From: Shewanella aestuarii
GTDB taxonomy: Bacteria > Pseudomonadota > Gammaproteobacteria > Enterobacterales > Shewanellaceae
Direction of reading: 5' to 3'
Length of the DNA stretch: 64,000 nt
Assembly (NCBI RefSeq): GCF_011765625.1
Contig: NZ_CP050313.1
Location: 554,501-618,500 of the forward strand
Both the position numbers and the translations under genes were made by a program. The notes beneath the pieces are model-generated. The model had not been told where the DNA came from and searched no databases. It saw only the letters and a list, made by a program, of their open reading frames with translations. Of this stretch, positions 36,742 through 54,965 are shown in pieces. The stretch's first letter is position 1; each line of letters opens with the position of its first letter.

Positions 36742-36810
36742 ATGTGGCAGATATTTAGTCGATTTTTAGTCCTAGGTTTAATTAGCTTTGGCGGCCCTAG
36801 GGTAAAATGA
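36742..36810 (+). pseudogene. chrA: chrA 5' remnant cut off by element insertion
   Basis: ATG with GGAAG upstream encodes 19 residues of a chromate-transporter N-terminus (MWQIFSRF ... LISFGGP), then three element-encoded codons and a stop. The codons for SFGGP are in the same phase as those at 53856-53870, where the rest of chrA continues. This is the original start of the gene, now separated from its body by about 17 kb. Confidence 0.85.
36786..36797. other. Left attachment core (attL)
   Basis: CTTTGGCGGCCC inside the chrA remnant; chromosome lies to the left, element to the right. The exact crossover within the 12 bp is not resolvable. Confidence 0.75.
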
Positions 36811-36913
36811 TCAAACCCCTACGTCAGAAATCGCAATAGGTTATCGCATAAATACAGTTTTTTGATGTTTATATGTGTAGTTGAGTTGGGCGTGCGATTA
36901 GTTGGATATTACT

Positions 36914-37582
36914 ATGAGTAAAGCTAAAGTCTCAAACAAGGTTGATCCTCTTAAAGAGGCCCTACAATATTTTGCTTTATGGTATGGCTTCCTAAAGCTC
37001 AACAAGGACTATCAAAACTACTGTTATGAAAAGAAGGCTAACAGGGACTATGAGGTCATCGATAACTTAGAAGCGGTATATGTATTGTGGGGGGATATAT
37101 TTGATGATTGCAGTAACTTTAAGAAATGGCGTTTTAGAAATCAGCAGGCAATAGTAACATTTTCGAAAATTAAAGAATCCAGTGGTGGTATAAAGCTAGC
37201 TAAAGATTATGAAAAAATAGGCTGCATTGATGTTCAGAATATCTATGAAGTTTACTCTAGATATCGACCTTACAATAAAAAATGGAATTCACGAATAAGT
37301 AGCAGTATTCAGAAAAAGCTTTTGGTAGCTTCACTGGATGAATTTAAGCGTCTTAATGAAGATAAAGTTGATGCTTCTCATGATATCAAAGAGTTACTAG
37401 AGGAATGGATGATTAGTGCATACAGTAAGGAATTTTGCTGGTTTGGACATATGTACGGTCAAGATTTAAGTCTTATTGAGCCCGACTTCGACTTTGATGA
37501 AAGAAGCTTGAGAAGAATAAGAGCCGAGATTAACAACATAATAGCTAACACATCTTACAATGAATTCCCTAAGATTAAATAA
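36914..37582 (+). CDS. Element protein of unknown function (paralogue of 45920-46741)
   Basis: A 222-residue protein starting at the ATG at 36914 (GGA seven bases upstream), the first gene inside the left end. I recognise no family. Its N-terminal 70 residues share a pattern with the protein at 45920: W(Y/F)xxLxxNxDYxxYC, then about 20 residues later VYxxxGDIF. A later QKK-x-LVASLDEF segment also has a counterpart there. It is rich in Lys, Asp, Glu and aromatic residues, with no transmembrane segment. Function unknown. Confidence 0.65.
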   Translation: MSKAKVSNKVDPLKEALQYFALWYGFLKLNKDYQNYCYEKKANRDYEVIDNLEAVYVLWGDIFDDCSNFKKWRFRNQQAIVTFSKIKESSGGIKLAKDYEKIGCIDVQNIYEVYSRYRPYNKKWNSRISSSIQKKLLVASLDEFKRLNEDKVDASHDIKELLEEWMISAYSKEFCWFGHMYGQDLSLIEPDFDFDERSLRRIRAEINNIIANTSYNEFPKIK

Positions 37583-37652
37583 TACACTTTAACTCTAATA
37601 AATTAGGTATCATGAAGAGCCTATAACGCTCGCGAACGGGTATTTGCTTTAC

Positions 37653-37739
37653 ATGTCGAGTGAGACATTTTAATAGGCAATGCGACATAAATAGGCTTTT
37701 ATTATGCTGATTATGGCCTGCTATGTCGCCTGATAATTA
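37653..37739. repeat. Cluster of inverted repeats around an ATGTCG motif
   Basis: ATGTC (37653-37657) faces GACAT (37664-37668). GCGACATA (37682-37689) faces TATGTCGC (37732-37739) across 42 bases, with an inner ATAGGC/GCCT pairing. The cluster fills the gap between two converging genes. Confidence 0.5.
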
Positions 37740-37746
37740 TATATTT

Positions 37747-37893
37747 TTAAGGCAAATCTTTTTTAATGCCAGTTCTACATACGCTGCAAATTGTTGGGTT
37801 TGAGCAGCGTACACACTCAACAGTATAACATCGCTGACATCTTCGAATTACAGCCCAACCTTTACAAGCTGGACAACGACCTAATCTAGCCAT
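37747..37893 (-). CDS. Cys-rich miniprotein with four CxxC motifs
   Basis: A 48-residue protein not long enough for usual gene finders. Its start overlaps the stop of the preceding gene by one base (TAATG), so the two are translationally coupled. It contains four CxxC pairs: CPAC, CQRC, CVRC and CSVC. This predicts two zinc-ribbon-like sites and little else, with a basic N-terminus (MARLGRCPACKGW). Possible RNA- or DNA-binding or structural role, but unknown. Confidence 0.68.
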   Translation of the reverse strand: MARLGRCPACKGWAVIRRCQRCYTVECVRCSNPTICSVCRTGIKKDLP

Positions 37894-38318
37894 TATTTTG
37901 CTCCTACTCGTCTAATTGCAGCTAATTGTGTATCGAGCTCACCTGCTTTTACTGCGTCAATTACAACGTCTAAGACTTCGTTTAAGCGACTCTCATCACC
38001 GACTGCTATTGCGTGCTTATTTTTGGCTAATTCTAGTGGTTTTGCGCCATAACGGACTTCTAAAAAGTATTGATCTTGTATTTTGTAAAACCAAGGCTTA
38101 ACTCTGCGTGGTACTTTTTCTTTGATTGATTGACCAGTTAGCTCATCAAGCTTGCTTACTTCTCGAAATGCACTGAACACTTCATTGTTGAGTAAGCATC
38201 GGATGATTTCTTTTTGAGTAGTAAGTCTTTCGAGTAGTTTGTTTCTTCGCTGGGTTAGCTTGTCTGTTGGTTGTTGTGGCTTAGCAGTTAGCTCTAGCTT
38301 GCTTAAAAGTGAAGTCAT
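37893..38318 (-). CDS. DUF6641-like protein
   Basis: A 141-residue protein with a strong ribosome-binding site (GAGGGACAATAA before ATG). The layout resembles the DUF6641 family: an N-terminal MTSLLSKLELT, a basic helix (RRNKLLERLTTQKEI), a middle KPWFYKIQDQYFLEVRYGAKPLELAK, and a C-terminal helix around VIDAVKAGELD. Function unknown; such genes are common on mobile elements of proteobacteria. It is cotranscribed with the Cys-rich miniprotein. Confidence 0.6.
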   Translation of the reverse strand: MTSLLSKLELTAKPQQPTDKLTQRRNKLLERLTTQKEIIRCLLNNEVFSAFREVSKLDELTGQSIKEKVPRRVKPWFYKIQDQYFLEVRYGAKPLELAKNKHAIAVGDESRLNEVLDVVIDAVKAGELDTQLAAIRRVGAK

Positions 38319-38568
38319 TTATTGTCCCTCTGGTTAACTTTTAACCACAAGTTATAGCCAGATGGGTAGGAGAGCAACCTAAGGTGTATATGATTGTGGT
38401 AGTAATAATGACAATTTTGAACTAGTCGATTTATGCTCTTTATATAATTGAATTAAGCTACTTGATAAGCTTAGTTTTATCTGTTTTTTAGCTAAATCTT
38501 AGATTCTTTTGTACACAAAACCACTGTATTTTTATACAATAGTTAAAATTTAATTTTGAGATGTTTTG

Positions 38569-40127
38569 ATGAACCACATAGAATTATTTGCTGGCTGTGG
38601 TGGCCTATCGCTTGGGCTGGACTCCGCAGGTTTTGAGCTTTTACTTGCCAATGAAATTTCTCCAATGGCTGCAGAGACTTTTGCTTATAATTTCTTCAAA
38701 GAAAATCTTTTAGATAAAGCAGAAAATCAAGAAAAGCCAAAAAATGCTCTATGGATAAGTAGTCAATACGAAGATCTCAAATCTAGATTGAGAGAGAATC
38801 CGTTTGAATACCCAGATTTGGGAATAGGTATTAATGATTTCGAAAGCTCCCCCCTGAACAACTCAAAGGTAAGATTTTAGTTGGCGATATTAGACACTTG
38901 AATCAATTGTTAGATGAAAATAAAGAGCTGAAATTGTCAATTTCACGTGCTTTTAATGAAACATCGTTTGGGGTTGACTTAGTATCAGGCGGTCCTCCAT
39001 GTCAGAGTTTTAGTATGGCAGGTATGCGTAAAAAAGATTGTGATAAGAACAGTTTACCGTGGGAGTTTGCTAGATTTGTAAAACATGTAAAACCTAAAAT
39101 TGCATTACTAGAAAATGTTACAGGTATTCTTCGACCTTTTTCTGAAGATGATGGAAAGAAATATTATGCTTGGTTTGAAGTTGCGAAAGTCTTTGCCAGT
39201 CTAAATTATGTTCCTCTTTGTTTACACATCAATGCAAAGTATGCAGGGGTTGCCCAAAACAGACCTCGATTTATCATGATATCGATTCGTAAAGATTACC
39301 TAAATCAAATTATTCCCAGTTTTACTCCTAAGGAGCAGAGTTTGTTTGCATCGGGTTTTGAGCTTTCTGATGCAATCCTAAAAGGTGAAGAGCCTGAGTT
39401 TGGTTTGTTAAAGTGTTTTGATGTAGATAAACAAGAAACTCTATATCATGATACATTTTTGCAAAGCCTAATCCAATTCAAAGGTAATGAGTTTAGTGTT
39501 AAACAAGCTATAGATGACTTATGTACAAATAATGCAAAATCATATTATGTAAATTTATTAAATGATCTTCTTGGTGAGAATGTGAACACTATTGAGAATT
39601 TCTCTCCAAAATTAAATTCAGAATCAGTGCAACGTAGATTTAGAATTTATCAAGTTTTAACCATTGTATCTAAAGCGACAGAGAAAGAAGTTAAAGAAGT
39701 TCTAAAAGGTAAAAAGGTTGAACTTACTTATTTAGCTACTCAGGAGTTACTAAATCATAAATTTCTATTTGAAAATGAAAATGAGCTTAGGTTCGCTATT
39801 AATAGTAATCAAATACTAGAATTATTGTTAACACACAAAACAAAGAAACAAACTCAAAAAGCATTGAACCCTAATACCCCAGCACCAGCTGCCTTAAGCA
39901 TACCTGACGATGCATGTCATTACGATCCATTACGAACACTTACTGTTAGAGAAATGGCCAGAGTACAATCATTTCCAGACTCGTTTGTATTTCGTTCAAA
40001 GCTTTCAACAGGAGGACTAAGTCGTCGGTTTGAGGTTCCTCAATATACTCAAGTCGGCAATGCTGTTCCGCCACTTTTAGGGCGAACATTAGGCTATATT
40101 ATAAAAGATTTGCTTAATCGAAATTAA
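38569..40127 (+). pseudogene. DNA (cytosine-5-)methyltransferase, frameshifted at a C6 tract
   Basis: All main C5-methyltransferase motifs are present: I (FAGCGGLSLGLDSAGF), IV with the catalytic cysteine (SGGPPCQSFSMAGMR), VI (ALLENV), VIII (QNRPRFIMISI), IX (REMARVQSFPDSF) and X (QVGNAVPPLLG). The frame breaks between motifs I and IV at the run of six C at 38849-38854. With seven C the protein would read on as SSPPEQLKGKILVGDIRHL and be about 520 residues. Either a phase-variable switch, a real mutation or a base-call error is possible. Its partner is the convergent endonuclease gene. ATG at 38569 is preferred over TTG 38566. Confidence 0.85.
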
Positions 40128-40158
40128 AAATAAAATATATGATATTTATATATAATAA

Positions 40159-40258: not shown

Positions 40259-41236
40259 TTACAACCTAGATACTTGTTCTATAAAGTCTTCGAATGTTAT
40301 GCTTTTCTCATCAAGCCATTTTAATCGAGTTTCACCAAACAAAATTTTATTTCGATCTTGCTTTGATTTATTCTTTTCTGCCTCTAGTCGTTTAAGTGAT
40401 GTATTTATTGCACGTATTCTCTCTTTTTCTGTAACCACATAAAGTATATCCTCTTTAACATATTTCGCTATGATTTCATCACCAATATCATCAGTAGTTT
40501 TTGATGATGCACTACAACCGTTAAAGGATACAAAGTAGTTGCGTTGGCCGGGTACTAACTCACTAGTTGTTAGGCGGGTGCGATCATTGGAACTGATTTG
40601 TACAGCTATGTATGCCTTTACCTCTTCTGGTTTTGTTGCTTTTGGGATAACAATATCTGTATCAGAACCTTCAGAAGTAAATTGTGTACAATAATCTATA
40701 TTTTTTTTCATACCTCGAGACTGAAGTAATGCTTCTAAAACCAATTCTCCACCACTACCAGCAAAAGATTTTCGGGCTTGGCTTAAACTACCCTCAGCAT
40801 ATACACCTAAGATTAAAATAATGCGATGTTTTCGAATTTCATCACCATTTTCTAAAATATCACAAACTTTATTATAAAGTTCTAAAGCAGAATCTTTTAA
40901 TGGAAAACCTGAGTCATGCTTCCACGCTGCAAAGTTATCTACAACTCCATATAGCCTTGCATTCAAATGTTGTAATGCCAATTCATAAACGTCTTGTAAT
41001 GCATCTTCTACGAACTCACTAGCAACTTGGGCTGCTCTTTCTTGAACATAACTTTTCAATAATAAATCACGTTCTACATTGAAAGAGCCACCAGACCCAG
41101 TTTCTTGTTTTTTCCGCCAAGCCATATAACCATTACCATAGAAGATTTTCTTAAAATCATTTTTTAATGCAATATCTTCTTTTGAGTTTATTCTGTTGCC
41201 ATTGCTTATTTGTTCTAACAATTCAGATGTCTTCAT
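40259..41236 (-). CDS. Probable type II restriction endonuclease
   Basis: A 325-residue protein, convergent with a cytosine methyltransferase. A PD-(D/E)XK-like core can be read: helix glutamate in GGELVLEALL (E164), then D194 in GSDTDIVIP and E205-V-K207 in EEVKAYIAVQISSND. The rest is unlike any endonuclease I can name, so the recognition site is unknown. A good ribosome-binding site (AAAGGATTATA) precedes the ATG. If the methyltransferase frame were truly broken while this enzyme is active, the host would be at risk, which is an argument against a fixed loss. Confidence 0.7.
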   Translation of the reverse strand: MKTSELLEQISNGNRINSKEDIALKNDFKKIFYGNGYMAWRKKQETGSGGSFNVERDLLLKSYVQERAAQVASEFVEDALQDVYELALQHLNARLYGVVDNFAAWKHDSGFPLKDSALELYNKVCDILENGDEIRKHRIILILGVYAEGSLSQARKSFAGSGGELVLEALLQSRGMKKNIDYCTQFTSEGSDTDIVIPKATKPEEVKAYIAVQISSNDRTRLTTSELVPGQRNYFVSFNGCSASSKTTDDIGDEIIAKYVKEDILYVVTEKERIRAINTSLKRLEAEKNKSKQDRNKILFGETRLKWLDEKSITFEDFIEQVSRL

Positions 41237-41779: not shown

Positions 41780-42157
41780 ATGAATGAATTTGTTCAACTG
41801 CTTAATTTAGCTGGTAAAAAAATAGAAATCGATCAAAATGGAACTTGGTCAAAAGGTAGTATCACATATTATCAAGCGATATTTGATGAGCTTAAAGAAG
41901 TAAAAAATGAGATCGATATGAACCGTAAATGTTACCTTGAAGATGAATTAGGTGACATATTATGGGTTTATATGTGCTTACTTAAAAATCTAGAAACGGA
42001 AATGTCAATTTCTGTGGAATGTGTTTTTGAGCGAGCGTTGAAAAAATACAAAGAGCGTTTAGATGGGATCAATGCAGGTGTAACGTGGAGTGAAATAAAA
42101 GAGCTTCAAAAGGAAGCATTATTAAAAGAATACCTTCTTGAAATAAGTAGTGGATAG
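41780..42157 (+). CDS. MazG-like nucleotide pyrophosphohydrolase
   Basis: A 125-residue protein with the all-alpha NTP pyrophosphohydrolase pattern: FDELKEVKNEI (E37, E40, E44) followed by LEDELGDILWVYMCLL (E54, E56, D59). This gives the ExxE ... ExxD metal site of MazG/dUTPase-like enzymes. MazG-like proteins hydrolyse (d)NTPs or alarmones and are frequent on phages and islands. The gene stands alone between long intergenic stretches. Confidence 0.78.
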   Translation: MNEFVQLLNLAGKKIEIDQNGTWSKGSITYYQAIFDELKEVKNEIDMNRKCYLEDELGDILWVYMCLLKNLETEMSISVECVFERALKKYKERLDGINAGVTWSEIKELQKEALLKEYLLEISSG

Positions 42158-42432: not shown

Positions 42433-45400
42433 TTAGTAAAAACACCTGTCTTTAGGCTTGTTATCAACTCGTGATTTTTTGCATGTAACAATACTGCTAA
42501 ATAACTCAATGGCTAAAGTATTAGCTTTTATTTTACTCTGATGGGTTTGATTCCAGTTATCAACAACAGGTTTAATAAATAATTCTCGAATGAAAGATCG
42601 AGTGACACACATTTGCTGTAAGCCATTTTGTGTTTTGTATTCATCCATTTTTGCTTGAATGAGTTCTAGTAAAATATTGGAGTCCTTTCCCTTTTTAGGG
42701 GCTTCATCGAAAGTAAGTTGTTTAACAGTAATAATATCACTTTTTATCTTTCCTGATAGGCCTGCTGGTATAACAACAATATGTTCAGAGTTATAACAAC
42801 CACGATAGCCAGTATTTCTTCCTATACTCTGATTATATCTGTTTGACACTAATGTACTCACAGCTTCCTCTTCATCTCCGGCCTTTTTATTAGAATCATT
42901 TATCCCAATTGCTAATAAGTAACTTTGAATTTCTGCAGGGTGGGGGTAACTTATAATACTGACGAAATTCATGCATTTTTTGTCATTATGCCCCTTTACT
43001 CCTTCGTGAGTGTAAGTCGTTATATTTTTAGCATTCAAAATGTTCTTTTCCCGTTCACTTAATCCGTTAACAATTAGAGAATAGGTAGGCCATTTTCCTT
43101 TGACTTCCACAATCGTTCTCAATAAAGCTGAGGAATTATTTTTGATTTTGCTCGATGTGGATGATGTATAGGTGAGTATTAAATTATCATCAAAAAGTGG
43201 TGTAAATCGGTCAATAAAGTGATGATTAATACCTCTAGCGTTTAATGCTTTATCAATACCTCTTTCTGCGCTGAGTAGTATTAAAAAAACGCCATTTCTT
43301 TCATATAGAAAATTCATCAGCTCTACTTGTTCAGGATCTGCTTTGATAGGGTTGTTAAAGCCAACAATTTTGCCATTATTTATATGTTCATATGTCGTAA
43401 CAATACCAGATTGAGGATTTACTTTTACAGCATCCATTTCATCCATAAAAACTATAACAGGTCTGCCCAAATTAAGCTGAATATTGACTCTGTACTTAAA
43501 GGCTTCTAGAGTCTTTTTTGCTTTGGCAAGAGTTAACATCTGATGTCGCATATCAGTATCTCTTTGCAAACCTAACTCATAAAATAGCTTGTTTTTTACT
43601 CTAGTTTTTCGTTTGTTTTGCTCTACTGCATCTTCGTATCTACTTTGCTGTGTTTGTTGATTTCTGTCTTTGAACCAATGATGTAAGCTATCAAATAAAT
43701 CAAGATCATCTTGTTGATAGTGGTGGTTTACATCAATATTATAATTTTCCTTATCAATATCGAGGTGACCATATTCTATTTTCAAAAGTGACCAAAGCAT
43801 ATTAGTCAATCCTTCAATTTGTATGCAGTCATGGTTAAACTGCTCTACATAATCATTGATATTTTTGTTGGTATTAGTGATGAAAACAGATGAGTAAATT
43901 GATTTTTCTGAAATAACCTTAGCAGCAAAGCTTTTTGCATTCCCAGCGTTCCCTCCTAAATATGCAACTTTTGGAATAGAACTATCTATTTCTTGAGCAT
44001 AAATCATAGGTTCAAAATATTTATCTATGTAGTCTAAAAGTTGTAGCGAATTTTGCAGAACTCTAAATTTCACATCTTTCTTTTTATTATTAGCAACTAA
44101 GATGTCAGCAATGGATACTATTCCATTGTATGAATGAAAAAAGTTAAACCACTCGCCATCTATCAAAACAGCCTGCTTCCAATAGCAAATTAATCCAAAA
44201 TTTCGACCTTGTTTTTTCAGATATTTTTTTAGCTGAGGTAAGCCTTCTTTGATTTGTTTACGATTGATAATTTTGGGAAACTCACCAAAGCAAAAGAACC
44301 CTCCAGTCTTAAATGAAAAGAGCATGAAACCATACTTAGCATATGGGGCTAGTATGATTTTACATTTGCAGGTTTCGCCTGTGATTGGATCGGCACAATA
44401 TTTTGATTTGAGTTTGTTTAAGTTGTCAGCAATGTAAGCAGCAGACATGAGAGTGCCTTGGCAAATTATATTTGAGTCATCAGGTAGTAATTCATACTGG
44501 TATTCTTGCTCTGATTTAGCTTTCGCTTTTATTTTGATTTCTTCTAAGGTCAATGATTCTTTGTTTTGTGCGACGCGCTCACTGAGCCACTTAGAGCAAT
44601 TGATATAGACGGTATGCTTAATGTTTTCAGATTGTCTTTGTTTGGTAAATAAATGGTGGGCTTCTTCAGAAGAATTGTTAACAGGTATTTCATCAATTAT
44701 TTCACCTTGACGGTAGACATAATTTGGTTTTTGTTCTGTAAGAAAACCTGATTGGTCGTCAATTTTTCCAATGTAATCTAAGCGTTCAGGTGAAAACACA
44801 GAGCAGTCTATAATACATCGCTCATAAATGGCGCCACTCTGTGATACGAATGCATACCCGTAACCTTTACACCAAGCTGTATCACTTAAGTACTGCTTTA
44901 GTTGTGTTATTAATGAGCCCTTTATTCGGTAGTAAATGTGCCATTTTTGACCAGACATACTGTTAAGTAATTTGCCAGTTCGTGAATCAATAAGTCCGTT
45001 ACTGCTTGATGGAATTGCTAGAACTTCTTTACCCTGTAATACAGGGAATATTTGGGTTAAATCATCTAATAATCTGTTAATATTGACAAAAGTGTAGCCT
45101 GTTTTTTGTAAATCATCAATATCAAGTAAAGCTAATGTTTCTTCAGCATATTCAAAGTTCTTTTTTGCTCTTGCAATTTGTTTGAGAGCGATATTCTCTT
45201 TATTTAGCGTTGTGATTGAAAAGGGTTTGGTTCTGCACCTTAATTGCTCATTTGGTATGCCATGAACTAGAGCAATGTCCTTATTTGTGAATTTAATTAA
45301 ATCTTCCAGAGATTTAAGTTTGACTACTTGACCTATGCCACTTGAAAGCGGCTTTCCATTTGAATCAATTCTATTTTGATTGTTTAGTGAATATTTTTTA

Positions 45401-45438
45401 CATGCTTGATTGCTTTGTATTGTGGTTAGCTTGATCAT
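42433..45438 (-). CDS. Predicted primase-helicase (AEP-like primase fused to P-loop helicase)
   Basis: A protein of about 1001 residues. Counting from an upstream in-frame ATG (45450), the N-terminus has the archaeo-eukaryotic primase triad: ALLDIDD (D110, D112), QKWHIYY (H171) and RCIIDCSVF (D215). The C-terminal part has a Walker A-like GGNAGNAKS (about 499-507), a Walker B VIVFMDEMDA (D670, E671) and a motif VI-like QSIGRNTGYRG. Similar domain combinations occur in plasmid and phage-satellite replication proteins, such as the CyRepA1 type. Inferred role: replication of the excised element. ATG 45438 is preferred (GAGG six bases upstream). It overlaps the end of the small gene before it. 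Confidence 0.7.
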   Translation of the reverse strand: MIKLTTIQSNQACKKYSLNNQNRIDSNGKPLSSGIGQVVKLKSLEDLIKFTNKDIALVHGIPNEQLRCRTKPFSITTLNKENIALKQIARAKKNFEYAEETLALLDIDDLQKTGYTFVNINRLLDDLTQIFPVLQGKEVLAIPSSSNGLIDSRTGKLLNSMSGQKWHIYYRIKGSLITQLKQYLSDTAWCKGYGYAFVSQSGAIYERCIIDCSVFSPERLDYIGKIDDQSGFLTEQKPNYVYRQGEIIDEIPVNNSSEEAHHLFTKQRQSENIKHTVYINCSKWLSERVAQNKESLTLEEIKIKAKAKSEQEYQYELLPDDSNIICQGTLMSAAYIADNLNKLKSKYCADPITGETCKCKIILAPYAKYGFMLFSFKTGGFFCFGEFPKIINRKQIKEGLPQLKKYLKKQGRNFGLICYWKQAVLIDGEWFNFFHSYNGIVSIADILVANNKKKDVKFRVLQNSLQLLDYIDKYFEPMIYAQEIDSSIPKVAYLGGNAGNAKSFAAKVISEKSIYSSVFITNTNKNINDYVEQFNHDCIQIEGLTNMLWSLLKIEYGHLDIDKENYNIDVNHHYQQDDLDLFDSLHHWFKDRNQQTQQSRYEDAVEQNKRKTRVKNKLFYELGLQRDTDMRHQMLTLAKAKKTLEAFKYRVNIQLNLGRPVIVFMDEMDAVKVNPQSGIVTTYEHINNGKIVGFNNPIKADPEQVELMNFLYERNGVFLILLSAERGIDKALNARGINHHFIDRFTPLFDDNLILTYTSSTSSKIKNNSSALLRTIVEVKGKWPTYSLIVNGLSEREKNILNAKNITTYTHEGVKGHNDKKCMNFVSIISYPHPAEIQSYLLAIGINDSNKKAGDEEEAVSTLVSNRYNQSIGRNTGYRGCYNSEHIVVIPAGLSGKIKSDIITVKQLTFDEAPKKGKDSNILLELIQAKMDEYKTQNGLQQMCVTRSFIRELFIKPVVDNWNQTHQSKIKANTLAIELFSSIVTCKKSRVDNKPKDRCFY

Positions 45439-45565
45439 CCTTGACCTCATTAGTTGGGTTGTATTGTCTTATAAATAATTTAATTGCGGCTTGGTAGCTT
45501 TTTTCTGGATACTCACGTTTGAGTATAGCTAGTACATCTTGAGGAAGCTCAGTAACAAATTTCAT
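45398..45565 (-). CDS. Small 55-residue protein overlapping the primase-helicase start
   Basis: It begins MKFVTELPQDVLAILKREYP and has the strongest ribosome-binding site of the element (AGGGGGG three bases before ATG). It overlaps the first 14 codons of the primase-helicase in another frame, implying translational coupling. The helical sequence (YPEKSYQAAIKLFIRQY) suggests a small regulator or replication partner; no family recognised. Confidence 0.65.
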   Translation of the reverse strand: MKFVTELPQDVLAILKREYPEKSYQAAIKLFIRQYNPTNEVKDDQANHNTKQSSM

Positions 45566-45919: not shown

Positions 45920-46741
45920 ATGAGAAGTGAATTCAAAACGAGACTTAAGTGGGCTGAGCTTTGGTTTAGAGCCTTAGGTTATAACGAAGATTATTGGTAT
46001 TACTGTTGTGATATGCGTAGGTTCTCAATTAGTGAAGAGTATGAATGCCAAGATAATTATCTACATCTGAAACAGGTTTATGATTTTTTTGGTGATATAT
46101 TTGTTAATGTTCCTGAAGATGATTTGTATACAGATGCTTTAACCGAAGGGATGCTAAAAAACTGGCATAGTGCTTTTCACATATGGCTCCACGATAATGT
46201 GCATAAAGTTATACCACTTGAAATTAAAGATTGTGTAATTATTGATGACGATATTTTAAGTGATAATCAACCAGTCCTAAAACTTTTTCAGGTTGGAAGT
46301 TGGGATAGTAATAATAAACAAAAAGCTGTCGAAAAGCAGCTTGACGTTTTTCATATGTGGTATATCGAACGTTTGCAGAGTAAAGATATTTTAATCAAAG
46401 GTATGACATCAGGAAAGGAGTGTTGGGAAGATGACTTTGATAAATATCTTAAGCATATTTGTATTAAACGGGAAAATGATTATAGAGTTAGATTAAAAAA
46501 AATTACAGATAGAATTAGAAAGTTGAGGGCTTCATCTAAGTCGCAAAATCGTCTGATGACGTCTAAACAGCGAAAGTATTTTTCTAACTTATTAAGAGCA
46601 CATCGTAAAAAAGGTAAGTATAGATTTGAAGATGTGCGTGGTATTTGGGATTCACAATTTAAGGGTAAACAACACCTTTACTACTCTGTAGTCAACTCTG
46701 CTATCACTTCAAATTTCCCTTCAACTGCAATTGATTTGTAA
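45920..46741 (+). CDS. Element protein of unknown function (paralogue of 36914-37582)
   Basis: A 273-residue protein. Residues 8-60 match the pattern of the protein at the left end of the element: WAELWFRALGYNEDYWYYC, then KQVYDFFGDIF. The C-terminal third is strongly basic (residues 190-235: RIRKLRASSKSQNR, KQRKYFSNLLRAHRKKGKYR), suggesting nucleic-acid binding, and is absent from the shorter relative. No known family recognised. First gene of the rightward cargo run. Confidence 0.66.
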   Translation: MRSEFKTRLKWAELWFRALGYNEDYWYYCCDMRRFSISEEYECQDNYLHLKQVYDFFGDIFVNVPEDDLYTDALTEGMLKNWHSAFHIWLHDNVHKVIPLEIKDCVIIDDDILSDNQPVLKLFQVGSWDSNNKQKAVEKQLDVFHMWYIERLQSKDILIKGMTSGKECWEDDFDKYLKHICIKRENDYRVRLKKITDRIRKLRASSKSQNRLMTSKQRKYFSNLLRAHRKKGKYRFEDVRGIWDSQFKGKQHLYYSVVNSAITSNFPSTAIDL

Positions 46742-46790
46742 AAAATAAAAGACTCCCCTACTGAATTTAATTTTATCATAAAATATTATG

Positions 46791-46862
46791 TTACTTAGTT
46801 ACTTAGTTACTTAGTTACTTAGTTACTTAGTTACTTAGTTACTTAGTTACTTAGTTACTTAG
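46791..46862. repeat. Octamer tandem repeat (TTACTTAG)9
   Basis: Nine perfect copies with no mismatch, ending 28 bases before the ATG of the gene at 46891 and 50 bases after the previous stop. It therefore sits in the leader of the two-gene unit that includes the TGT-like enzyme. Confidence 0.95.
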
Positions 46863-46890
46863 TTAGTTGGTTATTACTGGTGCGCATAAT

Positions 46891-47592
46891 ATGTTAACAA
46901 AAAATGTTTTTACTCAGTCAACTTTTGTCGTTGAAAACAAATCAATTCAAGATATTGCGGTATTAATAGAAAGTAAGTTTAAGCAGAAGAGGGTAAGTAT
47001 TAGAAATGGAAAGCATATACTTGTTGCCCAAGGTTACATTTGGTTTCGTATAGCGTCACAGGATAAATCATATTTTGATGCTATAACAGAACAATATCCA
47101 TCTAAATATACTAATAGTGAAATAGGTACGGCTGTGAAATACTTGTGGAAGTATCATGACACCAGTCAATCTTCGGTGATTAATTATATAAGTAACTGTC
47201 TGTCGTATCTTCATACTGTATTTAGTTCTAGGGTGATCGAAGGGTATGATGAAAAGCTAATTGATGAGATAGCAATGTATATAAGGAAACAAGGTGGCAT
47301 AAAAAAATGTGATGAATTATTCAGGATTCTTAACAAGCAGGTAGATCCTATGTCTACTAAGGTTAATAAAGTTGCGGGTGATTCTTCCGCTACTTCTAGT
47401 TCAATTTTTGATGAAGACAAAGCGATTCTTTCTTTACCTTCAATGGCAGAATTCCCTAGAACAAAGGATATTACTTTTAATGATAAATTTGCTTTAGCTT
47501 ATATATATGATGATGGGAATGTAATTCATGTTAAAGCAGCTACTTCATCCAGAAAAGCCTTAAAGGCAGCAGTTCGTTTTTTTAGGATTTAA
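46891..47592 (+). CDS. Unknown protein coupled to the TGT/DpdA-like gene
   Basis: A 233-residue protein starting at ATG 46891 (an in-frame TTG at 46867 is less likely; no clear ribosome-binding site at either). It ends one base before the start of the TGT-like gene, so the two are probably translated together and work together. N-terminal 130 residues are mixed alpha/beta (RNGKHILVAQGYIWFRIAS). A Ser/Thr-rich linker follows (around residue 165), then a small C-terminal domain (FALAYIYDDGNVIHVKAAT). No family recognised. Confidence 0.66.
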   Translation: MLTKNVFTQSTFVVENKSIQDIAVLIESKFKQKRVSIRNGKHILVAQGYIWFRIASQDKSYFDAITEQYPSKYTNSEIGTAVKYLWKYHDTSQSSVINYISNCLSYLHTVFSSRVIEGYDEKLIDEIAMYIRKQGGIKKCDELFRILNKQVDPMSTKVNKVAGDSSATSSSIFDEDKAILSLPSMAEFPRTKDITFNDKFALAYIYDDGNVIHVKAATSSRKALKAAVRFFRI

Positions 47593-47593
47593 T

Positions 47594-48811
47594 ATGAATT
47601 ACTTACTTCACTCACAGTTTAATGATGCGTTATATCTACCTGCTATGCAGGTAGGTTACGCTAATTATGCAAACAAGACATATTTAGAGAAGTTGCCAAA
47701 GCCTTTAAGTGTTAGTGATTTCAATATATTTAATGAAAAAAGTAATATGGTACATCATCCATATGCTCTCTACTCTGCAGGTTTAATAAATAATTTAAGG
47801 AATCCAAAAAGCTGTCTTGTAACTAATCCTGTAAATTTCAATAGGAGCTTAATACTTGGTGATAGTGCAGGTTATCAGGTCGGTAAAGGGCTGCTAAAAA
47901 TCACAGACCAAGTAATCTCTGACATTTTTTATTTTTTGTCGAATTATTGTCATTTTGCCATGACTTTAGATGTGCCCATGTTTGCCTGTCGTGAAACTAA
48001 GTTAGTAGACTATCCGACTCCAAACTCATGTTTGAATGCTACACTTTATAATCTTGATAGGTTTTTAGAACTTCAAGAAGACAATTTTCCATTTCTTAAT
48101 ATTATTCAAGGCTGGAACAAGAGTGATTCTGACTATTGGTATCATAAAGTAAAAAAATATCCTTTTTTTGGTTATGCCATTAATTGTGAAAACCTTAAGG
48201 TGTGGGATTTGATTTGGAGGTTGTTGCTGTTAATCCGAGATGGTTACTTTGAAAAAAAAGCTTCTTGGTTTCATTTACTTGGTTTGGGAAACCTTAAGGC
48301 AGCAGCTATAGTTAATATCACTTTTCAATTGGTTAAAGGGATGGTTAGCCCTTGTGTTTTTAATATGTCGTATGATTCATCAACGCCATTTTTAATGGCT
48401 GGAAGGTATATGAGATATAATAAAAATCCCGTTATATCTAATAATAGATTAGCTTTACCTCTAAGTCGTGTTGATGAAAGTTGGTTAGGCAATAATGAAC
48501 CATTCCCAGAAGGCTACTCATATATAGGTAGGCATGTAAATAAGTCAGATGTATTTAATACAACATCTAAAAATTATCGAAATTTAAGTCACTTATTACT
48601 CGTTAATCATAATTTAGAAACTCAAGTTAAGGCTATAAGTGAAGTTAATAAGCTGATATTAAAGCCTAATACTGAAAGTGGTTTGCCTAGCTGGTTGTTA
48701 AGAGTTAAAGATGCTTTGATATATGTATTTGAGCCATTTAATGTTGAAAAATGCATTACAAGGCTCAATGAGCCTAGAGTTAAATTGGCATTAAATAAGT
48801 ATTTGAAATAA
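47594..48811 (+). CDS. tRNA-guanine transglycosylase-like (DpdA-like) base-exchange enzyme
   Basis: A 405-residue protein with a TGT-barrel motif series in the right order. These are LILGDSAGYQVG (D90, compare DSGGFQ of TGT), FAMTLDVPMF (D126), LNIIQGW (compare IVQGG), FHLLGLGNL (compare YLMGVG), and NMSYDSSTPF (D261, a candidate nucleophile aspartate resembling the DST/DSS motif of DpdA-type proteins). I see no CxCxxC zinc site of canonical bacterial TGT. Known for the family: exchange of guanine for a 7-deazaguanine (preQ0 or preQ1) in tRNA, or in DNA for DpdA. Context on a mobile element beside restriction genes favours DNA modification, but this is inference. Confidence 0.66.
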   Translation: MNYLLHSQFNDALYLPAMQVGYANYANKTYLEKLPKPLSVSDFNIFNEKSNMVHHPYALYSAGLINNLRNPKSCLVTNPVNFNRSLILGDSAGYQVGKGLLKITDQVISDIFYFLSNYCHFAMTLDVPMFACRETKLVDYPTPNSCLNATLYNLDRFLELQEDNFPFLNIIQGWNKSDSDYWYHKVKKYPFFGYAINCENLKVWDLIWRLLLLIRDGYFEKKASWFHLLGLGNLKAAAIVNITFQLVKGMVSPCVFNMSYDSSTPFLMAGRYMRYNKNPVISNNRLALPLSRVDESWLGNNEPFPEGYSYIGRHVNKSDVFNTTSKNYRNLSHLLLVNHNLETQVKAISEVNKLILKPNTESGLPSWLLRVKDALIYVFEPFNVEKCITRLNEPRVKLALNKYLK

Positions 48812-48937: not shown

Positions 48938-49483
48938 TTAAGTCGATTTCAGAACGGTGTAAATGGTTTGTCGAGACACATTAAGGTTTTTGGCAATAAC
49001 AGCTTTAGCCATTCCATCAGCAAATAATCGTCTAACTTCATCATGCATTTGTTGATTGTGCTTACGACCCATATGCCGACCATCAGCTTTTGCCTTAGCT
49101 CGACCTTCATTACATCGTTGTAAAATACGTTTACGCTCCATTTCTGCAAATGCTGAAATTGTAGTGTAAATAACACGGCCAACATCAGAGTTAATGTCAC
49201 AACCGGATAAGTCGTGAAAGATTAAGCCGACCCCTTTTGCTTTTAATTTGTCAGCGATAGTTAAAGCGTCAATTGTATTACGTGCCAGTCGGTCAACTTT
49301 CATTACATGTACGGTGTCTCCATCACGCACAAAGTCGATTAGCTCATTTAATTGTTGACGGTCTGATGATTTGCCTGATTGGATGTCTTGGAAGATTTTA
49401 GTGCAGCCCTGTTGCTCTAACTGCATAACTTGCACACTTGTATTTTGTTCTAATGATGAAACACGGGCGTAGCCGATAAGCAT
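48938..49483 (-). CDS. Serine recombinase, resolvase/invertase family
   Basis: A 181-residue small serine recombinase. The catalytic domain has the active serine in IGYARVSSLEQN, plus KVDRLARNTIDAL and the E-helix FAEMERKRIL. The C-terminal helix-turn-helix (EVRRLFADGMAKAVIAKNLNVSRQTIYTVL) is intact. ATG at 49483 is chosen because it begins the domain and GGAG lies upstream; in-frame codons upstream are not family-like. Probable role: resolution of element multimers or inversion. A repeat-rich region just upstream could be its site. Confidence 0.92.
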   Translation of the reverse strand: MLIGYARVSSLEQNTSVQVMQLEQQGCTKIFQDIQSGKSSDRQQLNELIDFVRDGDTVHVMKVDRLARNTIDALTIADKLKAKGVGLIFHDLSGCDINSDVGRVIYTTISAFAEMERKRILQRCNEGRAKAKADGRHMGRKHNQQMHDEVRRLFADGMAKAVIAKNLNVSRQTIYTVLKST

Positions 49484-49807
49484 TTTAGTCTCCAGTGTAA
49501 AGTAAGTTGTATATGCTAATTTTACAGTCAAGTAATTGTCACACCTAGACTTTCTTTACATCTAAATGCAGATATTACTGGTGTAAGTTAACTTACAAGT
49601 TTCTTTACATCTGCTGGTGCTGTGTAGCTGGAAAATAATTGCATCGCTTTATATATAAGCAATGCGGTTTTTTTCCCGCTACAAACGAGCACTTATTGTC
49701 GGTATTAAATGCTTAAATGGCTGACTCGGATTGCTAGTTATTTCAGTATCTGGATTTCTAGTGATGTTATTATTACGTGTAAATTAAGCAGACAATAGCG
49801 AGCCAAA
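49484..49807. promoter_or_regulatory. Repeat-rich region upstream of the resolvase gene, candidate res site
   Basis: A 13-bp direct repeat TTTCTTTACATCT (49552-49564 and 49601-49613) flanks a 16-bp perfect palindrome TGTAAGTTAACTTACA (49583-49598). Resolvase sites normally lie just upstream of the resolvase gene and contain several such subsites. The region also separates the divergent resolvase and macro-domain genes, so it holds promoters. No gene seen. Confidence 0.45.
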
Positions 49808-50323
49808 ATGTTAGATGTAATTCATGATGATATTTTTAGTACTGAAGTTGATGCGATTGTTAACCCTGCCAATGTATCTTTGCTGCGTGGTGGTGGCCTA
49901 TGTGGTGTTATTCACAAAAGGGCAGGTATTGAGCTTGAGAATGAGTGCAAAACTATTGGACGGCAGGAGTATGGTGATGTCGTTATCACCCCTTCATTTG
50001 GCCTAAGTAATTGCAAGCACATCATTCATGCATGTGGCCCTCGTTGGCTTGATGGCAAAAGAGGTGAGGTTGAACAGCTTGAACTAGTGCATCAAAATAT
50101 CATGCATATAGCTTATGACAATGGACTTACATCAATTGCTATCCCAGCAATTTCGACTGGTATCTATCGTTTCCCTGTTGATCAAGCCGCACAGATAGCG
50201 ATCACTGCAATAGCTAGGCAGCAACAAACCAAGCCCATTCATGTATACTTTGTGCTAAATGAGCTTGATAAGTTTAATGTGTATCAGGCATATAAAAATC
50301 AGATAAGTGTTAATTGTTTGTAA
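49808..50323 (+). CDS. Macro-domain protein (ADP-ribose binding/hydrolase)
   Basis: A 171-residue single macro domain of YmdB type. The ADP-ribose site is well kept: VDAIVNPANVSLLRGGGLCGVIH near the N-terminus (Asn, and the GGG-x-x-G loop) and AIPAISTGIYRFP in the second half. Known activities: removal of ADP-ribose from proteins or nucleic acids, or hydrolysis of O-acetyl-ADP-ribose. On a mobile element it could counter ADP-ribosylating defences or toxins, but nothing else here is an ADP-ribosyltransferase that I recognise. Probably in a unit with the NERD gene 43 bases downstream. Confidence 0.9.
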   Translation: MLDVIHDDIFSTEVDAIVNPANVSLLRGGGLCGVIHKRAGIELENECKTIGRQEYGDVVITPSFGLSNCKHIIHACGPRWLDGKRGEVEQLELVHQNIMHIAYDNGLTSIAIPAISTGIYRFPVDQAAQIAITAIARQQQTKPIHVYFVLNELDKFNVYQAYKNQISVNCL

Positions 50324-50366
50324 ATCAGTTTTTATGGGAAATGCAATGTCGAGGTGTGAGTGAAAA

Positions 50367-51044
50367 ATGTTCAATTTGATTAGGGGGTGGTTAGGTGAAA
50401 AGAAAACAAGATTAAATCTTTGGGTGTCATTAAACAGCCAAATTTATAGGAAGTTTCATGATTTATATATTCCTACCTTTAGTGGCACTGCGCAAATTGA
50501 CCATCTTATAATATCTCAATATGGGCTATTCATTGTTGAAACTAAAAATATTAAAGGCTGGATTTTCGGTGATGAATCAGCTCACCAATGGACGCAATTA
50601 ATCTACGGGAATAAATATCGCTTTCAGAATCCATTGCGCCAAACATACCGACAAAAGAAAGCGCTAGCAGCTTATTTGAACATCGATGATAATTTGATTC
50701 AGCCAATAGTCTACTTTGCTGGAGATTGTCAATTCAAAACCTATATGCCAACTAATGTAATTAATGGCAGGCTGAGACATTCTATCAAGAGTTATCGTAA
50801 AGCAATACTTTCAGAACAAGAAGTATCATACCTTATAAGCAAAGTAGAAAATCATCAGATAAATAGTAAAACAACAAACCGTGAGCATGTAAAGGGACTG
50901 CGAGAGCGTTATAAATCTACAACTATTTGCCCTAAATGTGGATCACCTCTTGTTAAGCGTGTCGCAAGAACCGGTGTTAATGCTGGCAGTTATTTTTGGG
51001 GCTGTGATAGTTTCCCTAAATGTAGGTATATAAAAAATAAGTAA
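50367..51044 (+). CDS. NERD-domain protein with C-terminal topoisomerase-type zinc ribbon
   Basis: A 225-residue protein. N-terminal NERD (nuclease-related) domain: FSGTAQIDHLIISQYGLFIVETKNIKGWIFG contains the D ... ExK pattern (D in IDHL, VETKN) of the PD-(D/E)XK superfamily. A basic linker is followed by a C4 zinc ribbon of topoisomerase I type (CPKCGSPLVKR, then WGCDSFPKCRYIKNK). Such proteins are predicted DNA-cleaving or DNA-processing enzymes. It ends at a terminator. Confidence 0.87.
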   Translation: MFNLIRGWLGEKKTRLNLWVSLNSQIYRKFHDLYIPTFSGTAQIDHLIISQYGLFIVETKNIKGWIFGDESAHQWTQLIYGNKYRFQNPLRQTYRQKKALAAYLNIDDNLIQPIVYFAGDCQFKTYMPTNVINGRLRHSIKSYRKAILSEQEVSYLISKVENHQINSKTTNREHVKGLRERYKSTTICPKCGSPLVKRVARTGVNAGSYFWGCDSFPKCRYIKNK

Positions 51045-51397: not shown

Positions 51398-53434
51398 CTA
51401 CTTACTGCAATACTTAGGAAATTCAACATTTTCAATGAAACAGATTTCAGGACGGTGTTTTTTGATCACGTACTCGTTTTGCGTATGCTTATACACATAA
51501 AACTGATCTTCTATTTTTTTAGGAGCTCCTTTTAGCCCATCTGCCCAATTGGCAATATACTTTGCCCTTGTTAAATCATGAGTTAAATGGGGGGGATTTT
51601 CACCTAATTCATATTGTCTCATCATTTCAACAGATACATCGCCCAATCCATTATATTGGTAATGTGTGTTGTACCCAGTATTTTCTGCAGGGGCGGAAAT
51701 GACCTTATTACGTAAGTGACGAACTGCATCATGATCAAATAACTTATCTAAGCGAGATTTATTGTAGACTGTGTTCTCTAAAGGGTCTCCAAATTCCAAC
51801 TTTTTTAAGTCTTCGGTTTTAATCTTTACAGGCTGGCGATAAAAGTCACCTAACTTAGCCCATGCTATGCCATCAAAAACTAGCGTATCGCGTGTTCTAT
51901 AAGCCCTCAATGTGATGCCATTTATAAAAGTGATTTCAAACTTGATAAAACCTTGACGAATTTGCTCACAATTAATCAACTTGATTGCTGATTTAATTCG
52001 CTCTTTGGCAGATCTTCTTAAGTCAGATTGTTCATAATCAAGTATATTGTCATCGATTTCACCCCATTCAACAGAATCTTTTAGCTCGGATTCTCTTTTT
52101 GCTTGTAGTTCCTGCAAAGACACATAGAGCTGTTCTACTTCAAATTCAAGATTAGCTATCTCACTTGGTATTGCTTTTGTCGACACTCCTGATTTTATAA
52201 GGTCAATTAAATTCCTTATATTAGCTTGCTTAGTGTTAATGTTCTCTTCGATGCCCTTAATTGCAACATCGAATTCTTTCGTTTGATTGGTAGGTCGAAA
52301 AACATGATTAGAAGCTAGACGAATAATTGTGTCGTCTAGCCACAAAGCATTAAATGACCAAGATCGACACTGGAATTTAGTATTTGCACATACATAACGA
52401 TACTTGTCGTAACGCTTAATTTCTTCCTTATTCCTGTTGTGCGTGAGATTGGTCATACGTGAACCGCAATGTGCACAATAAAGTTGCTTATTGCCTGTAA
52501 ACAAATATACCTTATTTGAGTTTGCAGGTTTAACATTACGCTGCTTTCGTAATGCTTGTATTTGATAAAATGTAGCTTCGTCAACTAAAGGGGGATAGTA
52601 GTCCTTCAAAATATAAGTTTGCCCATTAAGATTGACCTCTTTTTCACCTAGTAATGTGCGTGATCTAAAAAACTTGTTCGTTCTGTTTAGCGTCCATACA
52701 CCGACTTCTCCTCTATCTCTTTTCGATTTAGGCAAAGGAGCCGGATACTTTTCATTTAGATGTCCTGTAATAATGTGTGTACCTTTTCCATCTAAACACA
52801 TCTGAATCATTTCTTGAGCTATCGGAAAATATACTGGATGAGGCTTGACTGATTTATCACTGCAATCAACCCAAAACTTATTAGAACCAACACTGTTTAA
52901 CGCAATAGGGTAGCCATCAGGGCTACGAATGCCCGCATTGTGATTTTCAATTAATGCCTTTGCCGCTCCGTTTGTACGATTGGATTTGATAACAGACTCG
53001 TCATGTGCTCGTGCAAAATGCAATATAGATACCATTAAATCTAAGGGGTTTTTATTGATACTCTCTTTGTTGTATACCCGCCGATCCATGCCTGTAACAA
53101 TGGTGATATCTAGATTGATTAGCTCGAGAAATAATGTCTGCGCATTATAAATATTATCTCTGGAGATGCGGTCAAAGTTCTCAACAATCAGCCAACTTCC
53201 TTTAGGGATTAGCCCATTTTTTACATCTTCGATAAAGCTCGCCAGTTTTCCAGACTCACTATTCTTCCCTCTAAATGCGCTAACGCCCTTATCGCAGTAC
53301 TCTATGAGGTCCAAGCCTAAATCTTTAGCAATCTCTTTTGCTAATCGTGTCTGACGAGCTATTGAGGAACCATTTTGTTGCGCTAGGCTAGAGTAACGAC
53401 TGTAGCTATAACAATAGGGGTTATTATCTGACAT
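51398..53434 (-). CDS. Large serine recombinase (element integrase)
   Basis: A protein of about 678 residues: N-terminal resolvase-type catalytic domain (SYSRYSSLAQQNGSS with the active serine, then VENFDRISRDNIYNAQ), a recombinase domain (IRSPDGYPIALN region and GVWTLNRTNKFFRS), a zinc-ribbon region (YCAHCGSRMTNLTHN ... CANTKFQCRS) and a coiled coil (about 375-445). This is the layout of phage- and island-type large serine integrases. It lies near the right att site. ATG 53434 is chosen (GAGTGG upstream); ATG 53458 is an alternative. Expected role: integration at and excision from the chrA site. Confidence 0.92.
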   Translation of the reverse strand: MSDNNPYCYSYSRYSSLAQQNGSSIARQTRLAKEIAKDLGLDLIEYCDKGVSAFRGKNSESGKLASFIEDVKNGLIPKGSWLIVENFDRISRDNIYNAQTLFLELINLDITIVTGMDRRVYNKESINKNPLDLMVSILHFARAHDESVIKSNRTNGAAKALIENHNAGIRSPDGYPIALNSVGSNKFWVDCSDKSVKPHPVYFPIAQEMIQMCLDGKGTHIITGHLNEKYPAPLPKSKRDRGEVGVWTLNRTNKFFRSRTLLGEKEVNLNGQTYILKDYYPPLVDEATFYQIQALRKQRNVKPANSNKVYLFTGNKQLYCAHCGSRMTNLTHNRNKEEIKRYDKYRYVCANTKFQCRSWSFNALWLDDTIIRLASNHVFRPTNQTKEFDVAIKGIEENINTKQANIRNLIDLIKSGVSTKAIPSEIANLEFEVEQLYVSLQELQAKRESELKDSVEWGEIDDNILDYEQSDLRRSAKERIKSAIKLINCEQIRQGFIKFEITFINGITLRAYRTRDTLVFDGIAWAKLGDFYRQPVKIKTEDLKKLEFGDPLENTVYNKSRLDKLFDHDAVRHLRNKVISAPAENTGYNTHYQYNGLGDVSVEMMRQYELGENPPHLTHDLTRAKYIANWADGLKGAPKKIEDQFYVYKHTQNEYVIKKHRPEICFIENVEFPKYCSK

Positions 53435-53804
53435 ATTCCACTCAGTTAAATAATTCATAATTGAGTGCTCATAATATTGTGGGGCCCTTTTATGTATAAG
53501 GACACCAAGTAAGGTGTTTTCGTGTCCTTGACATTCATTTTTTTATGTTGTTATCAGTATCTATATGCTTATAAAGCATTAAATTACAGCCTGATTAGTT
53601 ATCAGAGCAACCGAATTAATAGGTTTTTTTAGAAGTATGTATTAATGAATGTGTTCTTGAGGAGGAGCCAATTTTTACATATGTTTTTGGGTTTTAGATT
53701 GGTTGCTTGTTTCTTATAATCCGATGCTTATATTCATAGATGTCATAAATCTGCTATGTTGTTTTAATAAACTCAGCCAATCTGCAAACGAAGTCTAATA
53801 GATC
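53435..53804. promoter_or_regulatory. Right-end region: recombinase promoter, inverted repeat and chrA leader
   Basis: No gene seen. A 9-bp-scale inverted repeat AAGGACAC (53498-53505) / GTGTCCTT (53522-53529), with an inner CACC/GGTG, lies about 65 bases upstream of the recombinase start and may be an operator or RNA hairpin. The right part must supply the promoter for the element-started chrA. Confidence 0.4.
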
Positions 53805-54965
53805 ATGAACAATATCATAAAAATCTTTCTTTTGTTTTTAGGTCTAGGCCTAACTTCCTTTGGCGGCCCAGCTGCCCATATTGGGTATTTTAGAAAGACC
53901 TTCGTTCAAGACCTTAACTGGCTAGATGACAAGCAATATGCCAGTTTTGTTGCCTTAAGCCAGTTTATGCCAGGGCCTGCTTCTAGCCAAGTAGGTTTTG
54001 CCATTGGCTACCATAGAGGTGGTTTAGCGGGGGCGTTGTCGGCATTTTTAGGCTTCACTTTACCCTCGTTTTTATTACTGTTCTTGTTTGCTGTGACCAG
54101 TGCCGCATGGCAAGAGTTGGGCGTGGTAGCAGGAATTATTCATGGTTTGAAATTGTTGGCTGTCGTCGTGGTTGCTGATGCGACCTTGTCAATGTTCAAG
54201 CAATTTTGTCAGCGAAAAACTGCGCAATGTTTAATGCTGATGACTGCTGTTGCAGTTTTAGTACTGCCATCATTATTCACGCAAATCCTAGTGTTAATTT
54301 TTGCTGCATTAGTTGGTGCAATGTTTATGACCCGTGGTAATGGCACTCTGCCAGAAACATCAACTATACAACTCAACTTTTGGTGGCTTGGGTTATTTAT
54401 TATCGCGCTGGTGGCATCACTATTTTTAGCTAATCAACCTGATAGCCTAGGGCAAATTTTTGGTCAATTTTATCAAGTAGGCAGTTTAGTGTTTGGTGGT
54501 GGACATGTTGTTTTACCTCTACTTGAAACCAACGTTGGTGAGCTAGTCACCCAAGACCGTTTTTTAACCGGTTATGCGTTGGCACAAGCGATACCAGGAC
54601 CTATGTTTACCTTGGCGACATTCTTGGGGGCTGATATTTGGCTTGAGTCTCCAATACAAGGTGCGCTAGTGGCCACAATTGCGATATTTATGCCCGGTTT
54701 TTTACTAATGCTAGTTGGGCTCAAAAGTTGGCGTGCTATTAGTCAACGCCCTACTATTGCTGGCTGCCTGGCTGGAGTGAATGCTGCTGTAGTGGGTTTG
54801 TTATTGGCGGCATTGTATCAGCCTGTATTTGTTAGTGCGGTAGCTGCACCTATGGATATCGCGTTGGTGATATTAGGTTTTGGTCTACTTAAAATGTTTA
54901 AACCCAGTATTGTGTTATTGGTATTTGGGTTTGCATGTTCAGGTGCCGTGATAGGCGTAATGTAG
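53805..54965 (+). CDS. chrA: Chromate transporter ChrA, with an element-supplied N-terminus
   Basis: A 386-residue CHR-family protein with the duplicated halves of long ChrA (GLGLTSFGGPAAHIGYF and VFGGGHVVLPLLE; QFMPGPASSQ and QAIPGPMFTLA). Known function: chromate efflux; natural role uncertain. Codons 1-18 lie inside the element and replace the native start left at 36742. The joined sequence remains a good ChrA N-terminus. The ribosome-binding site is weak (GAAG 12 bases upstream), so expression may be lower or element-controlled. Confidence 0.9.
   Translation: MNNIIKIFLLFLGLGLTSFGGPAAHIGYFRKTFVQDLNWLDDKQYASFVALSQFMPGPASSQVGFAIGYHRGGLAGALSAFLGFTLPSFLLLFLFAVTSAAWQELGVVAGIIHGLKLLAVVVVADATLSMFKQFCQRKTAQCLMLMTAVAVLVLPSLFTQILVLIFAALVGAMFMTRGNGTLPETSTIQLNFWWLGLFIIALVASLFLANQPDSLGQIFGQFYQVGSLVFGGGHVVLPLLETNVGELVTQDRFLTGYALAQAIPGPMFTLATFLGADIWLESPIQGALVATIAIFMPGFLLMLVGLKSWRAISQRPTIAGCLAGVNAAVVGLLLAALYQPVFVSAVAAPMDIALVILGFGLLKMFKPSIVLLVFGFACSGAVIGVM
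53858..53869. other. Right attachment core (attR)
   Basis: CTTTGGCGGCCC inside chrA codons 18-22; identical to the left core and in the same codon phase. Element lies to the left, chromosome to the right. Confidence 0.75.

Follow-up and report, generated by a model that had tools for sequence, protein, structure and literature searches.

How did chrA come to have two starts, about 17 kb apart, in the chromosome of Shewanella aestuarii? The window analysed here (64,000 nucleotides of contig NZ_CP050313.1) holds the beginning of a chrA gene behind rlmC and a complete chrA further downstream. An initial annotation of the sequence read the DNA between them as a 17-kb element that had split chrA. 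We conclude, with a probability of roughly 0.92, that the locus carries a 17,072-bp integrated mobile element, whose large serine recombinase (LSR) joined an attP on the element to an attB in chrA, and that the element re-made the 5' end of the gene.

Borders, empty site and re-made chrA

The features at and around the two borders are as follows.

35517 to 36653, plus strand: rlmC, the left chromosomal flank (TIGR02085 above cut-off; just before chrA in relatives)
36742 to 36810, plus strand: displaced native chrA 5' end, 19 codons and then an element-borne stop
36786 to 36797, plus strand: attL core CTTTGGCGGCCC, exact repeat; likely crossover at GG 36790-36791, from the alignment with rimO elements
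51398 to 53458, minus strand: LSR of 686 aa at the right end, reading away from chrA (PF00239, PF07508, PF13408)
53693 to 53720, plus strand: weak promoter-like site before the re-made gene (2 sites on both strands against 2.6 expected by chance)
53805 to 53870, plus strand: element-supplied start and 22 codons rebuilding the chrA N-terminus (from the sequence)
53805 to 54965, plus strand: chrA, complete ORF with re-made 5' end (PF02417; TIGR00937 above cut-off)
53858 to 53869, plus strand: attR core, exact repeat; likely crossover at GG 53862-53863, again from the rimO-element alignment

The 12-bp core CTTTGGCGGCCC was found at both junctions in one chrA codon phase, as first described, and a search of both strands of the whole window gave no third site. 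The two copies are 17,072 bp apart, and two matches were obtained in none of 100 dinucleotide shuffles. By itself the repeat is weak evidence, since the same flank comparison pairs a second 12-mer, GAGTTGGGCGTG, at 36883 and 54114. The case for an element rests on the codon phase and on the relatives, and not on the repeat alone. With the core included, the repeat reaches 35 bp at 80% identity (28/35 bp; 36763-36797 and 53835-53869). Left of the core, the copies agree in 26 of 45 bases, against a shuffled mean of 14.1 and with 1 of 20,000 shuffles as high, and to the right in 6 of 45, that is, homology ends directly after the core. The core leaves the exact crossover bases unfixed, and its GG is the likely position. 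The interior is AT-rich, as the initial annotation had it: full kilobase bins have 31-39% GC inside (37-53 kb) versus 36-46% outside.

At the left border an ATG at 36742 opens 19 codons, MWQIFSRFLVLGLISFGGP, that run into a stop at 36810. The flanks joined at the core were compared with P0121, a near-identical ChrA of 383 aa (strain not given), and agreed in 376 of 383 residues. P0121 thus has the form that joining of the flanks predicts, and the empty site is real. Residues 1-19 of P0121 match the displaced codons in 19/19 positions versus 12/19 for the element-supplied end, so that the native piece is the left one, and the right-hand start is element-derived. The native N-terminus reads MWQIF in P0121, and is of this type or a variant of it in near relatives.

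Among 29 loci from relatives, each covering 1.5 kb on either side of chrA, 12 have rlmC just upstream of a chrA with an unbroken N-terminus. Thirteen further loci from the genus were requested; one was left out as over-long and 12 were compared. In these, rlmC and chrA are close together in 3 and separated by 2-14.5 kb in 9, which brings the relatives with rlmC closely before a continuous chrA to 15, in addition to P0121. All 12 have a single FGGP-coding site after rlmC, within an intact N-terminus. A displaced chrA copy or a second FGGP-coding start after rlmC, which the initial annotation had named as evidence against an element, was found in none of them. The genome of S. aestuarii itself gave one chrA match, and the nearest named ChrA relatives are from Shewanella. 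It should be noted that one of the 12 loci with an unbroken N-terminus (L009, genome G035) has internal stops further inside chrA, which suggests that the gene is dispensable in that genome.

The right junction reads ...LTSFGGPAAHIGYF. The ChrA encoded across it has 386 aa and begins MNNIIKIFLLFLGLGLTSFGGPAAHIGYF, its N-terminus aligns to native ChrA without gaps, and the body of the gene is free of stops. The gene stays open because the element carries a replacement ATG and N-terminus. The insertion within chrA thus stood up to analysis, and the view that it leaves the gene split did not, since 53805-54965 is a complete ChrA ORF. The DNA likeness between the element end and the chrA start suggests that the element captured a chrA 5' end, and selection at the protein level could have contributed further. 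No convincing ribosome-binding site was seen by eye before the new ATG. The re-made ChrA is predicted to be expressed and to work.

LSRs recombine attP with attB at a short core. The LSR at the right end, located there already by the initial annotation, has the domain set of this family (Resolvase, Recombinase and Zn_ribbon_recom, each above cut-off), and serines 23 and 24 are invariant across 11 aligned LSRs; catalysis in this family depends on a serine. The enzyme is predicted to be active. In the reading that we favour, it recombined the attP of the element with an attB in native chrA codons 15-19 (SFGGP), most likely crossing over at the GG of CTTTGGCGGCCC. The native upstream DNA, with the promoter side, and 19 codons remain at the left border, and the chrA body is fused to the element-borne ATG and N-terminus at the right border. 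In this way chrA is kept translatable, now behind upstream DNA of the element, and excision would restore the native gene.

Two other readings of the locus were weighed. The element may simply have broken chrA, the right-hand start being accidental and the gene inactive as long as the element is present. The weakness of the promoter-like site and the lack, by eye, of a clear ribosome-binding site before the new ATG fit this reading, but an accidental start is hard to reconcile with a gap-free match to native ChrA (12/19 residues; 28/35 bp) in front of a stop-free body, and related elements re-make rimO in the same manner (see below); we regard it as improbable. Alternatively, the chrA pieces may be two copies, or the remnants of a duplication, with cargo added by unrelated events, as the two starts in the window and the unrelated DNA between rlmC and chrA in the 9 genus loci mentioned above might suggest. 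The abrupt end of homology after the core, the single chrA match in the genome, the single FGGP-coding start in all 12 further loci and the continuity of P0121 argue against this, and leave it barely credible. We therefore prefer insertion by the LSR with a re-made chrA. The borders, the empty site and the recombinase bear out the site-specific insertion that had been proposed, and together with the intact re-made ORF and the layout in relatives they mark, on sequence evidence, a real and well-bounded element.

The recombinase and related elements at rimO

With an alignment of LSRs as query, 7 of 129 genomes of the genus match at E <= 1e-40, that of the window with 1,108 bits and six others with at most 254 bits. 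These six are different LSRs, and the window LSR is present in 1 of the 129 genomes. A sample of the class gave 1 match in 369 genomes at E <= 1e-60, from its own genome only, and in a sample of the order 4 of 394 match the single LSR sequence, its own genome included. In the family of Litorilituus 10 of 295 match, three of them (G859, G1084 and G927) with more than 500 bits. The named relatives are from Parahaliea mediterranea, Litorilituus lipolyticus and a Colwellia MAG (43-50% identity), and an Alteromonadaceae MAG (G861) has a fragment of an LSR only. No relative was obtained from genome_contigs or viral_contigs with the single sequence as query, and an alignment of relatives had to be used to find them. 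Twelve LSR loci from viral contigs are only 30-37% identical; two of them entered the trees described below, and neither rimO nor chrA was found in any of the 12.

The LSRs of Litorilituus, Parahaliea and the Colwellia MAG are 46%, 43% and 50% identical to that of the window. In Parahaliea and Litorilituus rimO lies beside or near the LSR. A search for the codons of GFVSLGCP, with at most one mismatch, found them repeated on the contig that bears the element in 3 of 4 genomes with named LSR relatives. A displaced rimO copy that is soon stopped, together with an intact rimO start at the LSR side, was found in five genomes:

Parahaliea (locus L067)
Litorilituus (L068)
Colwellia MAG (L069/L070)
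G326 (L072)
G927 (L109)

In the first three the order is that of the window, with a displaced 5' copy, cargo, LSR and re-made 5' copy. The LSR stands at the target-side end and is divergent from the target in the window and the rimO elements alike. The three differ from the window element in the target, rimO, and in cargo, and those of Litorilituus and Parahaliea also in a longer match between the 5' copies (360 bp and 239 bp, against 35 bp for chrA). The match is 297 and 40 bp in L069/L070, and none was detected in L072 and L109. Two displaced rimO copies are present both in the Colwellia MAG and in G927, which suggests tandem stacking of elements at rimO. In each of these genomes three rimO 5' copies follow one another, at 998 and 6416 of L069 and 5608 of L070, and at 18882, 14573 and 8487 of L109.

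Aligned by codons, the borders have GG in the same position, as in GGGTGCCC, GGCTGCCT, GGTTGCCC and the like for rimO and GGCGGCCC for chrA. This agreement is partly forced, since a glycine codon of either motif begins with this GG and the search pattern for rimO requires it. The pairs of copies in L068, L069/L070 and L109 diverge in such a way that their common stretch overlaps around GGNTG, a feature that the pattern does not force and that would hold unless later mutations shifted the copy boundaries.

Other loci do not fit, or may not fit, the layout of the five. The Alteromonadaceae MAG, with its LSR fragment, has one rimO start. In G081 rimO is 1.7 kb from a divergent LSR, and in G1051 it is 9 kb from a broken one. 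We did not find rimO beside the LSR in G172, where 1.5 kb upstream was seen, or in G1084 (Thalassotalea, P0011), and tblastn found neither rimO nor chrA within the 20 kb fetched from G910, G949, G974, G995, G1027 and G1029, six further matches from the family of Litorilituus. A search for short repeats found no target for the elements of Thalassotalea (L108) and Corallincola (L119/L120).

Cargo and type of the element

The ORFs carried between the left border and the LSR are as follows.

36902 to 37582, plus strand: cargo ORF weakly related (26%) to one of the Litorilituus rimO element (sequence comparison)
37893 to 38318, minus strand: DUF6641-like small protein, 141 aa (Pfam below cut-off; PHROG 31551; tblastn in 5/7 genomes compared)
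38566 to 40127, plus strand: C-5 cytosine DNA methyltransferase in two ORFs of different frames, 38566-38880 and 38898-40127 (PF00145 in both)
40259 to 41236, minus strand: ORF beside the methyltransferase, no family match
41780 to 42157, plus strand: MazG-type pyrophosphohydrolase (PF03819)
42433 to 45450, minus strand: putative replication protein, 1005 aa, with a primase-like N-terminus (PHROG 16593, residues 6-226)
45920 to 46741, plus strand: cargo ORF, no family match
46867 to 48811, plus strand: two ORFs, 46867-47592 and 47594-48811 (tblastn relatives in Thalassotalea and Corallincola loci)
48938 to 49531, minus strand: small serine recombinase of the resolvase/invertase type (PF00239 and HTH_7)
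49808 to 51044, plus strand: macro-domain protein (49808-50323, PF01661) and NERD nuclease-domain protein (50367-51044, PF08378)

Part of the backbone is common to several elements. The DUF6641-like protein accompanies elements that otherwise differ, namely those of the window, L067, L068, L069, L108 and L120. It is 56, 38 and 51% identical to its counterparts in the rimO elements of Litorilituus, Parahaliea and the Colwellia MAG, and in the window, L067 and L068 it is encoded close to the border at the far end from the LSR. We regard it as a candidate directionality factor. The methyltransferase may be frameshifted or mis-assembled, since it is spread across two frames, and the ORF beside it is possibly its restriction partner.

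The 1005-aa protein is 49-50% identical to a protein of Corallincola, the UniRef name of which begins with 'Replication origin-binding'. The 405-aa protein of 47594-48811 has no family match and gave identities of 38.6% in Thalassotalea and 29.5% in Corallincola (tblastn); by eye it seems to us to resemble tRNA-guanine transglycosylases. About ten head-to-tail octamers, GTTACTTA, occupy 46790-46869, just before the ORF at 46867, and are a possible iteron or phase-variation tract. Sequence searches against solved structures gave no match for the LSR, the 1005-aa or the 405-aa protein.

We found no relaxase or type IV secretion genes among the 14 ORFs of the element (Pfam), and Pfam for all 14 and PHROGs for 10 ORFs gave no structural match to capsid, terminase or tail genes, except that the C-terminal part of the small resolvase touches a family of terminase small subunits (E 3e-4). 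The gene content points to a plasmid-like, replicating integrative element. Neither half of the predicted attP had an exact match in viral_contigs, and no match came from searching viral_contigs with the replication protein or plasmid records with the 56 displaced bases. The circular pTR_1_35, which carries an LSR (L097), was considered as a free form and rejected, as it is without the chrA/rimO core; compared with the other 13 ORFs of the element it gave nothing better than E 0.6.

Known systems and a probable change of target

Replacement of a gene's 5' end, like that by the window element, is known from SXT/R391 elements at prfC, which supply a new promoter and use a tyrosine integrase. These elements are conjugative, whereas the window element has no relaxase or transfer genes that we found. 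The integrases of dusA-specific genomic islands also belong to another family, the tyrosine recombinases. According to PMC4482086, these islands likewise insert at a conserved gene's 5' end and bring replacement sequence with them, but their target is dusA.

The closest described case is Burkholderia phage JC1. According to PMC9144972, JC1 uses its LSR to enter rimO at the 5' end, the overlap is 18 bp, and an ATG of the phage keeps RimO in frame. It thus resembles the window element in having an LSR acting at a conserved gene's 5' end, a short overlap, an element-borne ATG and an attP beside the LSR start. The attP in its sequence record, CCTCGGGTGCCC, has the same form as the rimO and chrA cores and lines up with CTTTGGCGGCCC at the shared GG. 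JC1 differs in its target, in being a phage with a 61-kb genome, and in its LSR, which has 31% identity across 52% of the query. The window element shares with JC1 and the rimO elements a native 5' end displaced to one border and an in-frame re-made one at the other, and departs from them in that its target is chrA (PF02417, TIGR00937).

As an integration site, rimO is given in PMC9144972, PMC10322971, PMC9658991 (a table row) and PMC4482086 (a sentence). No publication among the matches listed names chrA as an integration site of a recombinase. The words 'chrA', 'rimO' and 'chromate' are absent from the main text of the large LSR survey PMC10083194, supplements aside, and these words and 'Shewanella' from PMC12884075, again supplements aside. 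The chrA target appears to be new, given these literature matches and the presence of the LSR in 1 of 129 genus genomes. The initial annotation knew of no described element with this target, which agrees with the matches listed, but the mechanism has a published precedent at rimO in JC1, and the LSR lineage has several members that target rimO. What appears new is the chrA target and the probable switch from rimO, the kind of mechanism being known.

Was rimO the earlier target? In a tree of 27 rows the group that holds the window LSR has nine other members, including the rimO LSRs of Litorilituus and Colwellia (P0003; 99/96), and the rimO LSRs of Parahaliea and G326 fall outside this group. 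A 20-row tree agrees (100/97). This tree is a rebuild, without the very divergent row, of a 19-row analysis in which Corallincola forms a very long branch (end branch 7.9) and the nesting is lost. The window LSR is thus nested among rimO-targeting LSRs in two of three trees. It is likely that rimO is the ancestral target, and not more than likely, because many rows have no assigned target. These are P0002, P0004-P0010, L073 and L108, and they, with the loss of nesting in the 19-row tree, leave room for the opposite history, in which chrA-targeting is old in the lineage and rimO-targeting arose separately. The grouping of the window LSR with those of Litorilituus and Colwellia in the two other trees, with more rimO LSRs outside, speaks against that history, which we consider unlikely. 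The element was probably retargeted from rimO to chrA. We tentatively propose, as close to an even bet, that the lineage made this switch in nature through similar core DNA (SLGCP in RimO, SFGGP in ChrA) and captured a chrA 5' end, the host gene being rebuilt at each insertion.

If true, the switch would be a natural example, at the sequence level, of how LSRs gain sites without harm to the host. For an uncharacterised LSR, the locus provides natural candidates for attB and attP. The related recombinases with differing targets, rimO and chrA, form a matched set in which a change of specificity is directly testable, and in several gammaproteobacteria elements of this kind replace the start of the target gene rather than destroy it. 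Further from the window LSR, a relative from E. coli (37% identity) adjoins ydcR and a hicB remnant. The distant LSRs L076-L080 and L113-L115 (25-31%) have neighbours whose translations resemble, by eye, the products of rnhA, comM, ushA, endonuclease III and glyoxalase genes.
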